Origin: a candidate division TA06 bacterium SM23_40
Lineage (GTDB): Bacteria > LJUI01 > SM1-40
DNA: 11,171 nucleotides
Assembly: GCA_001303705.1 (NCBI GenBank)
Contig: LJUI01000117.1
Location: 1-11,171 of the forward strand
Reading direction: 5' to 3'
The notes under the pieces were generated by a model. That model did not search any database and was not told the origin of the DNA. It was given only the letters and a program-made list of their open reading frames with translations. The first letter of the stretch is position 1. Each line of letters starts with the position of its first letter. The translations under genes were made by a program, and so were the position numbers. This document shows, piece after piece, positions 1 through 8,182 of this stretch.

Positions 1-2835
1 ATACGAGATGTCCCGTAGCTCATCCTCGAAGAGGGTCAGCGGGTGGCGGCTGACCAGGAACCCGAGCACCTCTACTTCATGGCGAAGGAGCATCCCTTCG
101 TCGTAATCGGGAACCTCGGGAAGAGGATCGTCGAGATGTTTCCCCAGGCGCCGCTCGCCCATCACCGCGTACAGTTGCCACATGAGCTGAGGCCGCGTCC
201 TCCCCCGGGCGATCGAGTCGAAGCACCCCGCCTTGATGAGCACCTTCACGTCCGATGGATCGACGTCGACCCGATCGAGGAATTCGGCGAACGATCTATA
301 TGGTCCCCCTCGCCGCCGCTCCTCGAGGATCGCCTCCAGGCCGGCCGAAGAAAGCCCCTTGAGCTGCATCAGCCCGACGCGCACCTCGCGGTCCACCCCG
401 GTGTACGGCTCCTCGCTCAGATTGATGTCGGGCGGGAGCACCGCCAGACCCATTCGCTTCGCCTCGGAGACATAGGCGAATGTCGCATAGTATCCGCCCT
501 GATTGGAGATGACCGCGGCCATGAACTCGGCAGGATAGTGGGCGCGCAGATAGGCCGACTTGAACGAGACGAGCGCATACGAGGCGCTGTGCGGCTTACA
601 GAAGCTATACCCGCTGAAGCTGAGGATCATCTCCCACACCCGGTCGATCACCTCACGGGCCACGCCCCGCGCCCCCGCTCCCCCGTAGAACTGGTCCCGA
701 TAATCCCGGAGCTGCTTCTGCGCCCGCTTCCTGGAGAGCGCCTTCCGCAGCCCATCTCCATCGACGGCATCGAACCCCGCCATCGCCATGGCGACCTTGG
801 TGACATCCTCCTGATAGCACATGATCCCGTAGGTCTCCCGGAGGAGTTCATCGAGAATGGGATGGAGCGAAGTATAGGCGCCGCCGTGGAGGCGACGGAC
901 GTACTCTCTGATGTAGGTGTTGGCGGCAGGGCGGATGATCGAGCTATGGATCACCAGATGTTCGAAGTCGCCGGTCCCCGTCTTCTCCTGGAGCTGGCGC
1001 ATGGCCGGCGACTCGACATAGAAGACGCCGATCGTGTCGCCGCGCGCGATCAACTGCTGGGTCGCCGGATCGTGGAGCGGATCCCAGGTCCGGTAGTCGA
1101 TCTCGATCCCATAGTTCGCCTTCACCGCCGCGAGCACGTCGCGGATCACCGCCAGCGAACGGTTCCCCAATAGATCGATCTTGACCAATCCGCTGTCCTC
1201 GGCCTGATCCTTCTCCCACTGGATGATGTTGACTCCTTTCGGCGCCGGCTCCATCGGCACGTGGCGACTGATCGCATCGGGGACGATGATCATCCCTCCG
1301 CAATGGACGGAGAGGTGGCGGGGAAATCCGTCGATCGCCAGGGCGAGGTTGATGATCTCCGGCCAGGGGGGTGAGAGATCGATATCTTTGAACAGGGGAT
1401 GGTGCTGGATGAGGCCGGGGAGCCGATGCCTGCCCCAGAGTTGTCTCAACCGTCCGGTGACATTCCTGATCTCCCCCTCGGGCAGGCCATAGACCTTGGC
1501 GATCTCGCGGACCGCGGCCCGCGCCCGCAGACAGACGTGATTCGCCACCATCGCCGCGCGGTCTGTGCCATACCGCCGAAAGACATAATCGAGCACATCG
1601 TCGCGCTCGTCCCAGGGGAAATCGACATCGATGTCGGGCGCGTCCTTCCGGCCCGGATTGAGAAACCGCTCGAAAAACAGATGGTACTCGATGGGATCGA
1701 CATGGGTGATGCCAAGACTGTAGGAGACGATGCTGGCGGCGGCCGAACCGCGTCCGCAGGTGCGCGGAAAGCGCGAGACGATGTCCTCGACGATGAGGAA
1801 GTAGCTGGCAAATCCCTTCTCTCCGATGATCGCGAGTTCGTGTTCGAGCCGCTCGACCAGCTCGCGCGGCAGCTCCTTTTCCTCGGGAATACCGTACCGG
1901 CGGCGCGCGCCCTCATAGGAGCGGGCGCGCAGCGTCTGCAGGGCGCGATCCTTCCCCGGCCCCGCGAAATCGGGGAAGGCGAATTCACGAAACTCCCAGT
2001 CGACGACACAGGCAGCCGCGATCCGTGTCGCGTTCTTCAGGGCCTCGGGACAGTAGACGAAGGCCTTCGCCATTTCATGCGGCGGCTTGAGCCAGGCGCT
2101 CCGCGGGGCGAGCTCCCGTGGAGGCAGGCGCGACAGTTTGGTATTGCAATCGATCGCCCGCACCAGCCGGTGGATAACGAACTCCTCGGGATCGAGGAAG
2201 TGGACGGCATTCGTCGCCACCGGAGGGATGCCGAGCTCACGGGCGAGGCACACCACTTCGTCTGTCGTCCCGCCGGGCCGGAGCTCGGCATAGAGAGGAG
2301 CGACCTCGGCTGCGGACGTCGCCGCGGACAGAGACACGTACGTTGATGCGTCTCCGCCGCCTGCCCGACAGACCCCATGACCTCGCCCGCGGGGTGGATG
2401 GCCCGTTCCGGTCGGCCGCCAGAGATGGCCGGCCGACCGGAGAAGGGGACTGGCGAGCTGGCGGAGGAGCCCGACCGAGTCGCTCAATACGACGATTCCC
2501 TCGCGGTCGTGGACCAGAGCGCGGGCCAGGGAGAACTTCTCATCGCAGTGGCGCTGCGAGATGAGACGACAGAGAGTCTCATATCCCCGACGACTCCGTG
2601 CCAGCACCACAGCGCGCTCATCGCCCGTCACGAGCTCGGCACCGATGATAGGGTGGATGCCGAACTCCTTCGCCACCTGGAGGAATATGATGAGTCCATA
2701 GAGTCCATTCGTATCGGTGAGCGCCAGGGTATCCATTCCCCGCGCTCTGGCGACACGACAGACATCCTCGATTGGTGCCGTCCCCCGCATCATCGAGTAG
2801 TAACTATGGACATGGAGATGGACGAACCGCGACAT
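1..2835 (-). CDS. dnaE2: DNA polymerase III alpha subunit, DnaE2/ImuC-like, 3' end outside window
   Basis: C-family replicative-type polymerase catalysing template-directed DNA synthesis. The frame is open for 945 codons with no stop and leaves the window before its C terminus. The N-terminal PHP domain begins with HLHVHSYYS (residues 6-14). Catalytic Asps lie in PDIDVDF (D401, D403) and KIDLLGNR (D554). GRGSAAAS precedes the palm, and FCKPHSASYALVSFKSAYL with HYPAEFMAAV marks the fingers. The ATG at 2835 is chosen because an in-frame TAA lies 16 codons upstream and an AGG lies 7 bases before it. It follows lexA and the imuB-like gene on the same strand, which argues for the error-prone SOS polymerase (DnaE2/ImuC) rather than the replicative DnaE1. 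The C terminus that would help decide is missing. Odd feature: about 50 low-complexity residues (129-178) containing a perfect palindrome. Polymerase identity is very sure; the DnaE2 role is inferred from context. Confidence 0.9.
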   Translation of the reverse strand, partial: MSRFVHLHVHSYYSMMRGTAPIEDVCRVARARGMDTLALTDTNGLYGLIIFLQVAKEFGIHPIIGAELVTGDERAVVLARSRRGYETLCRLISQRHCDEKFSLARALVHDREGIVVLSDSVGLLRQLASPLLRSAGHLWRPTGTGHPPRGRGHGVCRAGGGDASTYVSLSAATSAAEVAPLYAELRPGGTTDEVVCLARELGIPPVATNAVHFLDPEEFVIHRLVRAIDCNTKLSRLPPRELAPRSAWLKPPHEMAKAFVYCPEALKNATRIAAACVVDWEFREFAFPDFAGPGKDRALQTLRARSYEGARRRYGIPEEKELPRELVERLEHELAIIGEKGFASYFLIVEDIVSRFPRTCGRGSAAASIVSYSLGITHVDPIEYHLFFERFLNPGRKDAPDIDVDFPWDERDDVLDYVFRRYGTDRAAMVANHVCLRARAAVREIAKVYGLPEGEIRNVTGRLRQLWGRHRLPGLIQHHPLFKDIDLSPPWPEIINLALAIDGFPRHLSVHCGGMIIVPDAISRHVPMEPAPKGVNIIQWEKDQAEDSGLVKIDLLGNRSLAVIRDVLAAVKANYGIEIDYRTWDPLHDPATQQLIARGDTIGVFYVESPAMRQLQEKTGTGDFEHLVIHSSIIRPAANTYIREYVRRLHGGAYTSLHPILDELLRETYGIMCYQEDVTKVAMAMAGFDAVDGDGLRKALSRKRAQKQLRDYRDQFYGGAGARGVAREVIDRVWEMILSFSGYSFCKPHSASYALVSFKSAYLRAHYPAEFMAAVISNQGGYYATFAYVSEAKRMGLAVLPPDINLSEEPYTGVDREVRVGLMQLKGLSSAGLEAILEERRRGGPYRSFAEFLDRVDVDPSDVKVLIKAGCFDSIARGRTRPQLMWQLYAVMGERRLGKHLDDPLPEVPDYDEGMLLRHEVEVLGFLVSRHPLTLFEDELRDISY
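2407..2441. repeat. 12-bp perfect palindrome inside dnaE
   Basis: Arms TCCGGTCGGCCG (2407-2418) and CGGCCGACCGGA (2430-2441) are perfect inverted repeats with an 11-nt loop. They lie within the coding frame of the polymerase gene, in a stretch encoding Gly/Arg/Pro-rich sequence not expected between the PHP-domain segments ending LLRQLA and starting LYAELRPG. It could be an in-frame palindromic insertion or a chance product of GC-rich sequence. Confidence 0.6.
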
Positions 2836-3024
2836 CAGAGTACCTGTTTCATCATTAGAGTACCTGTCCCATCGAAACTCTTATTCCATCATCGGAGTAC
2901 CCGTCCCACCATCGGAGCATCTGTCCCATCGGGACGCCCGCCCCATCATCAGAACACCTGTCCCATTATCAGGGCACCCGCTCCATCATCGGGACACCTG
3001 TCCTATCATCAGAGCACCCGTCCC
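2831..3024 (-). repeat. degenerate 20-bp tandem repeat array between imuB and dnaE
   Basis: Ten adjoining units of 20, 20, 17, 20, 20, 17, 20, 20, 20 and 20 bp. Minus-strand consensus is GGGACRGGTRCTCTGATGAT. The two 17-bp units (2871-2887, 2928-2944) close two 57-bp super-units. The first unit in the transcribed direction contains the imuB stop; the last contains the SD-like sequence and ATG of dnaE. Several internal units read as tiny frames such as M-G-Q-V-L-stop, matching the imuB C-terminal MGRVL, with the stop overlapping a following ATG (TGATG). There are no unique spacers, so this is not a CRISPR array. It looks like a tandemly copied translational-coupling junction. Confidence 0.9.
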
Positions 3025-4274
3025 ATCCGAATGGCCTCGCCGCCATACTTTTCACGGATCCTGTCGATCGCCGCGACCAGTTCGCGATCCCTTTGCACAC
3101 CTTCTCGCCCGGACGAGCGGGCAGCTCTGTTCTCTCCCGTACAGCCGAAGAGATCGAGCTGGCGGGTGCGCACAATCAGGTCGGTAAGCTGGATCGAGAG
3201 ATGGCGCACACGCTGCCTTCGGTCGCAGGCCTGGAAGAACAGGGACTCAACGTGGCGGAAAAGATACATATCGAGAGTCGTCCTCTCGTCGAACCCTGCG
3301 CGGTCGAGCCGCGGCCGGCCGTCACCGCGCGATCTACCGCTACCTTGCCCCCGACCATCGAGCCTGGTGCGCCGCACCCGCTCGACATGATCGGCATAGC
3401 GGAGCGTGAGCGTCAGCCGCCTCGCCACTACACCCCCCTTTCGCAACCGATGCGCCGCTCGCTCGCTCATCGCATAGAGTTCAGCGAGGAGACGCCGATC
3501 GTCGTTCGTATCCTCCGCCAGGAAACCTTCCTCGACGATCGCCGGCCTCCGCTGCGGCGGGCGCACCGGAGTGGGATCGATCCCCAACGCCTGCCGATGA
3601 AGCACATAGGCAACACGCCCGAAGACGACGGTGAGATAACCGATCGGTATCACCGCCAGCTGGCGGATGAGGCGAATATTCAGTTCCTCAACAAGCACCT
3701 CCTCGGTGTCCTGTTTCAATTCCGGCAACACACGCACGGTCAGCGGCGCGAGAAAGGCTGCCTCGCCCCCATGTTCGACATCGCAGACGTCCCCATCAGG
3801 CTGGATGATCCTGGCCGCCACTCTGCTCACAAGTTTATTCGATGCGATGCCGACCGTCCCCCTGAGCGAGAGCCGGCTCGATATCTCCCGCCGCATCCTC
3901 GCCGCCACATCCCTGGGTTCGCCGAAGAGACGCCGCGTCCCGGTTATGTCGATGAAGAGATGACCGTATGAGGACGGCTCCACCAGGGGCGAGAACTCCC
4001 CCAGTACCTCGTACACCGAGCGGGATGCGGCCCGGTACAGTATCTCGTTGGGGGGGATCACCACCAGGTCCCGGCACCACCGACGCGCATGTGCGAGCGG
4101 CATCCCCTTGCGGATGCCGGCACGGTAGGCCTCGATGGAGGCGCAGCGCACCGCTGCCCGGGCCGCTCCCGGCACACCGATGACGACCGGCCTGCCGCGC
4201 AGCCGCGGTTCCCGCACCTCCTCGACCGCCACCCCAAAGGCGGCGATGTCAAGATGTATAATGTGACGCTCCAT
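3009..4274 (-). CDS. imuB: ImuB-like catalytically impaired Y-family DNA polymerase
   Basis: Y-family (DinB/UmuC) fold of 421 residues. The first palm motif HLDIAAFGVAVEE keeps D9. The second motif, SIDEAYLDVT in DinB, reads SYGHLFIDIT here: the Asp-Glu pair is replaced by G104-H105, so two of the three metal ligands are gone. TVGIASNKLVSRVAA is the usual Y-family palm segment. QLDLF at 372-376 is a strong beta-clamp binding motif, and the tail REKYGGEAIR resembles DinB ends. Known ImuB proteins likewise lack catalytic acids and link DnaE2/ImuC to the clamp, so a scaffold role in error-prone lesion bypass is inferred. The start overlaps the lexA end by 26 bp, suggesting translational coupling. 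A low-complexity Arg/Gly stretch precedes DRAGFDERTTLD. A divergent DinB with residual activity cannot be excluded. Confidence 0.85.
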   Translation of the reverse strand: MERHIIHLDIAAFGVAVEEVREPRLRGRPVVIGVPGAARAAVRCASIEAYRAGIRKGMPLAHARRWCRDLVVIPPNEILYRAASRSVYEVLGEFSPLVEPSSYGHLFIDITGTRRLFGEPRDVAARMRREISSRLSLRGTVGIASNKLVSRVAARIIQPDGDVCDVEHGGEAAFLAPLTVRVLPELKQDTEEVLVEELNIRLIRQLAVIPIGYLTVVFGRVAYVLHRQALGIDPTPVRPPQRRPAIVEEGFLAEDTNDDRRLLAELYAMSERAAHRLRKGGVVARRLTLTLRYADHVERVRRTRLDGRGQGSGRSRGDGRPRLDRAGFDERTTLDMYLFRHVESLFFQACDRRQRVRHLSIQLTDLIVRTRQLDLFGCTGENRAARSSGREGVQRDRELVAAIDRIREKYGGEAIRMGRVL

Positions 4275-4872
4275 AGTTCCGAATCAGCCCCACCACCACA
4301 CCGCGGATCGAGAACTCACCCTCGGTCACCACGATGGGGCTGAGGGCGGCGTTGGCCGGACGAAGCTCGACCCCTGCCCCGGTGCGATAGAACCGCTTCA
4401 CCGTCGCCTCGCCATCGACCAACGCCACCACTGTCTGCCCATCGTCGGCCGTCTCCTGCCGCTTGACGATCAACAGGTCACCATCGAGGATCCCGTCATC
4501 GACCATAGACTGGCCCTCTACTTCGAGCGCATAGTGCTCGCCGTGGTGGAGCATGGCCTGCGGCACCTCGACCGTTCCCGGCTGCTCCACCACCTCAAGC
4601 GGACGCCCCGCGGCGACCGGTCCCAACAGCGGCAGTTCGACCGTTCCGCTCCGCTCCCAATCCACCAGCGCAAGGGCCCGCTTCTGGTTCCTCCACGGGC
4701 TCTGGATCACGCCCTTCTCCGCGAGCCGCCTCAGATGTTTCTGCACGGAGTTGAGCGAGCGAAATCCGAAATGCCGGCGGATTTCGTCATATGAAGGGGC
4801 CACTCCTTCCCGGGCTACATAGGCCCGGATGAATTCATAGACCTCTCGTTGCCGCCTGGTCAGCATCATCAT
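4249..4872 (-). CDS. lexA: SOS repressor LexA
   Basis: Transcriptional repressor that self-cleaves when stimulated by the RecA filament, derepressing DNA-damage genes. From the chosen ATG it has 207 residues. The N-terminal winged helix spans about 1-65 (LTRRQREVYEFI; PSYDEIRRHFGF; SLNSVQKHLRRLAEKG). The cleavage bond is A88-G89 in VAAGRP. The catalytic dyad is S122 (GQSMVDDGI) and K159 (GEATVKRFYR). The start at 4872 is supported by GAGGAG at 4887-4882, nine bases upstream; the longer GTG reading from 4893 would put this SD inside the gene. It heads the lexA-imuB-dnaE operon and overlaps imuB, so it is probably autoregulated together with the mutagenesis genes. Its recognition helix differs from that of E. 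coli, consistent with a lineage-specific operator. Confidence 0.95.
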   Translation of the reverse strand: MMMLTRRQREVYEFIRAYVAREGVAPSYDEIRRHFGFRSLNSVQKHLRRLAEKGVIQSPWRNQKRALALVDWERSGTVELPLLGPVAAGRPLEVVEQPGTVEVPQAMLHHGEHYALEVEGQSMVDDGILDGDLLIVKRQETADDGQTVVALVDGEATVKRFYRTGAGVELRPANAALSPIVVTEGEFSIRGVVVGLIRNYGASHYTS

Positions 4873-5695: not shown

Positions 5696-7144
5696 ATGGC
5701 TACACTCCGCGAGCGTATCGCCAACCTCGTCGAGCGGGCTGCCGAGAACAACTCATGGCGCCAACATCGCTGCTTCAACCTCATCCCGTCAGAGACGACG
5801 CCGAGCCTGCTGGTGAAGATGTGCGAGATCTCCGATCCGGCCGGCAGATATGCCGAACACCGCACGATGAAGGGGAAGGAGATCTACTTCTACCAGGGAA
5901 TCGATTTCATCCGCGAGGTTGAGGAGGAGGCGCGTGCCGAGCTATGCACGTACTTCGGGTGCTCGGAGGTCGAACTCCGCCCGATCAGCGGCCAGATGGC
6001 GAACGAGGTCGTCTTCAAGGCCGTGACGAAGCTCATCAACCGGGAGAACGCCCCGGGGCAGCCATTCAGGCGCATGCGCTCAGTGATGAACAATGACCTG
6101 ACCAAGGGGGGACATCTCAGTTCGCAGCCGATGGGCGCGCTCTTCAACTACGTCGAGATCGATCCGGAGACAGGGAAAGAGGCAGTCGTCAACTTCCCCA
6201 TCCGCGAGGACAATCCGTACAGGACCGACGAAACCAAGCTCGAGGACCTCCTCCGGACGCACCGTCCGGAACTGGTCGTCTTCGGGAAGAGCATGTTCAT
6301 CTATCGCGAGCCGGTCAGATTCGTGGCCAGGATCGCGGCTGAGCTCGATCCCCCGCCGATCCTCATGTACGATATGGCCCACGTCCTCGGTCTGTACGGT
6401 CTGTTTCAGGAACCGCTCGCTGAGGGGGCTGACATCGTCACCGGGAGCACTCACAAGACGTTCTTCGGGCCCCAACGCGGCGTCGTGGCCAGCAACATGG
6501 AAAAAGGGACGCCGCTCCGCAAGCTGTGGATCGAGACGAAGAGCCGTGCATTCCCCGGTTCCACGAGCAATCATCATCTCGGCACGCTGCTCGCTCTCCT
6601 CCTCGCCACCTATGAGATGAACGCGTTCAAGGAGGAGTACCAGAGCCAGGTGCGCAAGAACGCCAAGGCCTGGGCTAAGGCCCTGGTCGCCTACGGTGTC
6701 GAGGTAGAGGGCGATCCCAGTGACGGATACACTGAGACTCATCAGGTCCTGCTGCGGGTGAGGAAGTACGGGATCGGAGAGGACATCGCCAGGCGACTCG
6801 AGGAGAACAACATCGTCGCCAACTACCAGGCACTCCCCGATGATCCCAGCTTCATCAACTCGAGCGGGATCCGGACGGGCGTCCAGGAGATGACACGGTT
6901 TGGAATGCAGGAGAGGGATTTCGACAGACTTGCCGGATTCACGGCCGAGGTCGTCATCAATAACAAGGATGTGGCTGACGAGGTCGCCGCCTATCGCAAG
7001 GAATTCAACGAGATGCAATACTGCCTCCCCCCGGAGGAGGCTGCCCAATTCGGCGCCAGGCTACTGGCCACCGTCCTACCCAACAGCGACTACTCGAAGC
7101 TGTTCGCCGACAACCTGATCGCAGCGGCCGCGCTCGCACGCTGA
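5696..7144 (+). CDS. serine hydroxymethyltransferase-like PLP enzyme (divergent)
   Basis: PLP-dependent fold-type I enzyme of 482 residues related to GlyA, which interconverts serine and glycine with tetrahydrofolate. The SHMT landmarks are present in order: LIPSET (30-34, matching LIASEN), the RYAEH glutamate region, ISGQMAN, KGGHL (H140, stacks on PLP), YDMAHV (D226, H229), STHKTFFGP with Schiff-base lysine K254, and SGIRTG (R393, binds the carboxylate). It is longer than typical bacterial GlyA (about 415-430). Insertions lie around INRENAPGQPFRRMRSV and in the VNFPIREDNPYRTDETKL region, and there is a distinctive C-terminal tail. It stands alone behind its own promoter and converges on trpS. 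It may be the cell's SHMT or a relative acting on another beta-hydroxy amino acid. Family is sure; substrate is not. Confidence 0.85.
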   Translation: MATLRERIANLVERAAENNSWRQHRCFNLIPSETTPSLLVKMCEISDPAGRYAEHRTMKGKEIYFYQGIDFIREVEEEARAELCTYFGCSEVELRPISGQMANEVVFKAVTKLINRENAPGQPFRRMRSVMNNDLTKGGHLSSQPMGALFNYVEIDPETGKEAVVNFPIREDNPYRTDETKLEDLLRTHRPELVVFGKSMFIYREPVRFVARIAAELDPPPILMYDMAHVLGLYGLFQEPLAEGADIVTGSTHKTFFGPQRGVVASNMEKGTPLRKLWIETKSRAFPGSTSNHHLGTLLALLLATYEMNAFKEEYQSQVRKNAKAWAKALVAYGVEVEGDPSDGYTETHQVLLRVRKYGIGEDIARRLEENNIVANYQALPDDPSFINSSGIRTGVQEMTRFGMQERDFDRLAGFTAEVVINNKDVADEVAAYRKEFNEMQYCLPPEEAAQFGARLLATVLPNSDYSKLFADNLIAAAALAR

Positions 7145-7312: not shown

Positions 7313-8182
7313 TCAGTATTTGATCCCCACCCGCTCCCGCACCTTCTCGATCGTCGGGGCGGCCCGTTCCCGCGCCCTCTCCGCGCCGCGGCGGAGGATC
7401 TCACGAACCACACTCGGATCCTTCGCCAGCTGCGCGCGCTTCCTCCGATAGGGACCGAAGTAGTCGATTATGAGACTGAACAGTTCCTTCTTGACCTCGC
7501 TGTACCGCACGCCGCCCGTCCGATATCGGTCGGCAAGACTCGCCGCATCCTCCGGCGCGGCGAATAACTTGTACAGCAAGAACAGATTGTCAGCCTCAGG
7601 ATCCTTCTTTTCGTCGATCGGCCGTGAATCGGTGACGATTCCCATCACCTTTTGACGCACAGATTCCTCGTCAGCGAAGATCTCGATCGTGTTGTCGTAG
7701 CTCTTCGACATCTTCTGTCCGTCAATCCCGGGGACGACCGCCACTTCGTCCTCGATCTCCGGCTCCGGGATGACGAAGGTCTCGCCGTATGTCTGGTTGA
7801 ACTTGATGGCGATATCACGCGCCACCTCGACGTGCTGCTTCTGATCCTTGCCGACCGGGATGATCTCCGACTGATAGAGAAGGATGTCTGCTGCCATCAA
7901 CACGGGATAGGCGAAGAGTCCGTGGTTGGGCGATAATCCCCTCGCGATCTTGTCCTTGTACGAATGGCAGCGCTGCAGGAGTCCCATCGGCGTGACGTTC
8001 GAAAGGATCCAGGTGAGCTCGGTCACCTCGGGCACGTCGGATTGGACCCAGAAGATCGCCTTCTCGGGATCGAGCCCGTAGAGCTCATGCTCCTCCTGGT
8101 ACGCGATCATTCGCCGCATCATCCCGAAGTAGTTGCCTATATGTAGAGACCCGGACGGCTGGATACCTGATAGGACGCGCAT
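7313..8182 (-). CDS. trpS: tryptophanyl-tRNA synthetase with an apparent internal deletion
   Basis: Class I aminoacyl-tRNA synthetase charging tRNA-Trp. The HIGH-type motif is PSGSLHIGN (H14), and KMSKS is at 157-161. VGKDQKQHVEVARDIA and YPVLMAADILLYQ are typical. The ATG at 8182 is used because the product then starts MRVLSGIQPSG as in the family and GAGGAG lies 11 bases upstream; longer frames reach into the promoter. At 289 residues it is short (usual about 325-340). EEHELY (to Y35) joins directly to GLDPEKAIFWVQSDVPE (from G36). The roughly 32 residues expected between them, including the conserved (N/D)xHA(L/I)T segment and following helix of the Rossmann fold, are absent with the frame kept. 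This may be a real inactivating or tolerated deletion, or a sequence or assembly error. It has its own promoter. Confidence 0.92.
   Translation of the reverse strand: MRVLSGIQPSGSLHIGNYFGMMRRMIAYQEEHELYGLDPEKAIFWVQSDVPEVTELTWILSNVTPMGLLQRCHSYKDKIARGLSPNHGLFAYPVLMAADILLYQSEIIPVGKDQKQHVEVARDIAIKFNQTYGETFVIPEPEIEDEVAVVPGIDGQKMSKSYDNTIEIFADEESVRQKVMGIVTDSRPIDEKKDPEADNLFLLYKLFAAPEDAASLADRYRTGGVRYSEVKKELFSLIIDYFGPYRRKRAQLAKDPSVVREILRRGAERARERAAPTIEKVRERVGIKY

Follow-up and report, generated by a model that had tools for sequence, protein, structure and literature searches.

The trpS gene of the window, which is an entire contig (C74) of 11,171 bases, encodes a tryptophanyl-tRNA synthetase (TrpRS) lacking a stretch of residues near its active site, and the question is whether the living organism works with such an enzyme or whether the contig fails to represent its working gene. 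The sequence-only reading had left three explanations side by side: a compromised enzyme covered by a second trpS, a fold that tolerates the loss, or a misassembly. The contig belongs to a 2.88-Mb draft genome made up of 189 contigs, with an estimated completeness of 89.76% and contamination of 1.32%; from its fragmentation and completeness values we infer that the draft was derived from a metagenome.

The gap in trpS

The gene and its parts are as follows.

7316..8182, minus strand: trpS, tryptophanyl-tRNA synthetase, 289 codons, 32 residues short (TIGR00233, PF00579, alignment)
8078..8182, minus strand: N-terminal piece, residues 1–35, with strand 1, HIGN, helix 1 and the start of strand 2 of the Rossmann fold
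8077..8078, minus strand: junction lacking 96 bp (32 codons) that all relatives carry (alignment of 109 homologs and DNA comparison with eight relatives)
7316..8077, minus strand: C-terminal piece, residues 36–289, with strand 3, CP1, the GKDQKQH region, KMSKS and the C-terminal helical domain

The frame opens with the ATG at 8182 and stays open through its last codon, which ends at 7316; the stop codon comes next, and an AGGAG-like ribosome site lies immediately upstream of the ATG. The product scores above the cut-offs of both family models, with 255.8 bits against TIGR00233 (cut-off 176.75) and 168.6 bits against PF00579 (cut-off 21.1), and carries both class I signatures, LHIGNY (HIGN, of the HIGH type) at residues 13–18 and KMSKS at residues 157–161. 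The nearest relative found is the TrpRS of a Deltaproteobacteria MAG, L034 (62% identity in the best segment, 69% in aligned columns), and the nearest solved structure by sequence is the TrpRS of Campylobacter jejuni (3m5w/3tzl). The protein shares with bacterial TrpRS the order HIGN, CP1, GKDQKQH, KMSKS and the C-terminal domain, but it is without half of strand 2, the HALT motif and the helix between strands 2 and 3, 32 residues in all.

Re-reading of the frame placed the junction at 8078/8077, where the sequence-only reading had put it: Y35 is encoded by 8080–8078 and G36 by 8077–8075, and the translation passes from MIAYQEEHELY directly into GLDPEKAIFWVQSDVPEV. The homologs used for comparison (n = 109) came from GTDB species genomes and genomes of other phyla, none of them from the same phylum, and may contain a few TyrRS-like frames. 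Between the equivalents of Y35 and G36, 91 of the 109 have 32 residues, 16 have 33 and two have 34, whereas the window protein has none, so that the claimed in-frame loss of about 32 residues was borne out. Measured against the nearest relatives, the gap is exactly 96 bp long and in frame; these 96 bp are missing from the contig.

The relatives show the pattern (C/A/V)F(I/L)xxxHA(L/M)T...DFLAL in this segment. Column conservation was scored against 23 other TrpRS rows, in which the lost F, H and T are invariant; three further lost columns are conserved at 90% or more. The alignment with the 109 relatives shows that the active-site motif of strand 2, xHA(L/I/M)T, is missing from the window protein, which agrees with the earlier placement of the (N/D)xHA(L/I)T strand-loop within the missing segment. 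Because the segment is present in all 109 relatives and three invariant columns are lost with it, the gap is more than the random variability of a loop. In Escherichia coli TrpRS, His45, Ala46 and Thr48 line the active-site cavity and contact inhibitors, and His45 is conserved among bacterial TrpRS (PMC12135181). Judged by motif position, the missing H, A and T would correspond to these three residues. No natural TrpRS without this segment was found in the literature searches made.

Predicted fold and the prospects of a short enzyme

AlphaFold2 models of the window protein and of the intact L034 enzyme as a control were built on the same 24 rows. The control (mean pLDDT 90.4) has strands at residues 2–6, 33–37 and 73–77 and a helix at 49–65. 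Projected on it, the gap takes out residues 35–66, that is, the latter half of strand 2 together with the HALT loop and the helix 49–65; its starting point, after control residue 34, lies in the middle of strand 2 rather than at the border of a module. For the window protein, the model has a mean pLDDT of 81.8, falling to block means of 51 (residues 1–10) and 46 (residues 31–40); strands 1 and 3 are not formed, only isolated E assignments being present, and confidence there is low. The whole still matches TrpRS and superposes on the Campylobacter enzyme 3tzl with Z 28.2 and 2.5 Å over 286 residues, as is expected because the remaining chain is that of an ordinary TrpRS. Since structure predictors are unreliable judges of the effects of deletions, the predicted loss of fold is support for a damaged enzyme and not proof of it. 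Without half of strand 2, the HALT loop and the following helix, the 289-residue protein would very probably be inactive and unable to charge tRNA-Trp.

The contrary reading takes the deletion as real and the protein of 289 residues as an active enzyme, in which strand 3 has shifted to the position of strand 2 and the HALT loop is replaced by other residues. The open frame, the retention of all other conserved motifs and the superposition of the remaining model on 3tzl are consistent with it, and so is the behavior of TrpRS constructs cut down much further. These constructs, the protozyme and the urzyme, retain the N-terminal crossover, strand 2 and the histidine motif. With 46 and 130 residues, respectively, and with CP1 and the anticodon-binding domain removed, they keep considerable activity (PMC5272822). 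The window protein resembles them as a shortened TrpRS, the constructs having been examined for activity; unlike them, it loses part of the N-terminal crossover and keeps CP1 and the C-terminal domain. Against an active short form, none of the 109 relatives is short at this place, each of the 23 other rows carries the motif's histidine and threonine, and strands 1 and 3 do not form in the model. Compensating change is not evident either, a single near-invariant column being altered, whereas an older working short form should show some. The suggestion that the fold tolerates the loss is thus weakened by the loss of a central strand and of the active-site histidine, by the predicted structure and by the lack of any shortened relative, and we regard a working short enzyme as the least likely of the readings. 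It appears very improbable that a bacterium alone in its phylum depends on one TrpRS in which strand 3 and other residues do the work of the missing strand 2 and HALT loop. A real and active short gene would mean that a class I synthetase core can do without a central strand and a conserved histidine of the active site.

Age of the event and the search for a second copy

The earlier claim that the other motifs are intact holds: in addition to HIGN and KMSKS, outside the gap the window protein matches all 71 invariant columns and 32 of the 33 near-invariant columns (103 of 104 together), and intact relatives match the conserved columns at a similar rate in a leave-one-out comparison. The sole near-invariant change is E to Q at residue 70. 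Because the conserved columns outside the gap match as they do in intact enzymes, our analysis suggests that full constraint acted on trpS up to very recent times. Decay would be expected in a gene long dead, and some adjustment in a short form of long standing; neither is evident, with the reservation that variable positions can be judged only with close relatives. Taken with the mid-strand start of the gap, the lack of decay or adjustment speaks for an artefact or a lesion of very recent date. A collapse or deletion driven by repeats was considered and rejected, as no direct repeat longer than 5 bases and no inverted repeat longer than 6 occurs between the flanks, and the only 5-base match between them sits away from the junction. 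A repeat of at least 21 bases at both ends of the gap is unlikely, since both flanks are conserved in the relatives.

A second copy was sought in the bin, which is about 90% complete, through PF00579 matches and with a full-length relative as the query, and none was found. The full-length query matched the tyrS gene and the two pieces of this trpS and nothing else; the other PF00579 match, on contig C25, was rejected as a second trpS, being tyrS (TIGR00234, 367.8 bits). A 51-residue query spanning the gap did not locate the missing piece elsewhere in the bin at E values up to 10; the same query located the segment in six of six other genomes used as a positive control.

These searches leave the proposal of a second trpS standing only in part: no second copy is in the bin, and an unbinned one is possible because about 10% of the genome is missing. 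The deletion would then be real and fixed, the short enzyme dead or dying, and the second trpS located in the unrecovered tenth of the genome. The completeness of 89.76% leaves room for one missing gene, and two TrpRS are known in some genomes (one of those sampled, G052, has two good matches). On the other hand, clear two-copy genomes are rare among those sampled, and the loss would need to be very recent, the rest of trpS being undecayed. We place this reading second in probability and consider it rather unlikely.

Another possible source of the contig is a different organism, or a subpopulation that is not viable, whose DNA was binned with the genome, as the fragmentation of the bin and its estimated contamination of 1.32% would allow. 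However, the trpS of this contig is the only one in the bin, and the question of the 96 bp would persist for the other organism; we hold such a source to be improbable.

The preferred explanation and other features of the contig

The likelihoods attached to the readings here are judgements and not computed probabilities. On balance, the contig at this place is probably not the working gene of the living organism, and we infer either an assembly error or a minority allele. In the first case, a mis-join in local assembly or gap closing would have dropped the 96 bp; in the second, the assembler would have picked a rare and very recent deletion allele. This explanation draws on the presence of the segment in all 109 relatives, the loss of the invariant F, H and T from an otherwise undecayed gene, the start of the gap in mid-strand, the loss of strands 1 and 3 in the model and the lack of any other copy of trpS or of the segment in the bin; the draft is, in addition, fragmented (189 contigs) and 89.76% complete. 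Against it stand the exact in-frame length, which has one chance in three if lengths are random, and the lack, at the junction, of a repeat that could have led an assembler to collapse the sequence. The integrity of the other class I synthetases seen in the bin also counts against it. Three PF00133 synthetases span the profile nearly end to end, one as two adjoining pieces, and the TyrRS of the bin spans its model in a profile search; a fourth PF00133 match (on contig C161) is partial, covering positions 27–245. General gapping of the assembly was therefore rejected, as the other class I synthetases sampled in the bin span their profiles.

The gap is a real property of the contig sequence, and no new biological feature is claimed for it. 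The case is a caution that single-copy essential genes in draft bins can hide in-frame gaps, which annotation can miss because the family model still scores the protein well above its cut-off.

Several other features of the contig were observed. A gene for an SHMT-family protein of 482 residues (5696–7141, plus strand; PF00464, 124 bits) is convergent with trpS. Positions 1–4866 on the minus strand hold, according to Pfam domains, a cassette of lexA, a Y-family polymerase with an IMS domain and a DnaE2-type polymerase, which resembles SOS mutagenesis operons. Inspected by eye, the Y-family protein has SSYGHLF where active Y-family polymerases carry SxDE, as in ImuB proteins. At about 2300–2470 on the minus strand, the DnaE2-type protein has about 45 residues around LLRSAGHLWRPTGTGHPPRGRGHGVCRAGGGDASTYVSLSAATSAAEV that are missing from the nearest homologue found, L118 (67% identical over 171–800); these residues were either inserted or reflect a local fault in the sequence of this contig. 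Between the genes for the Y-family polymerase and the DnaE2-type protein, at about 2860–3010, a plus-strand frame shows short repeated units (PSSEHPSHH..., PSSEHLSHYQ...), and this stretch, judged from the translated reading alone, is perhaps an intergenic tandem repeat.
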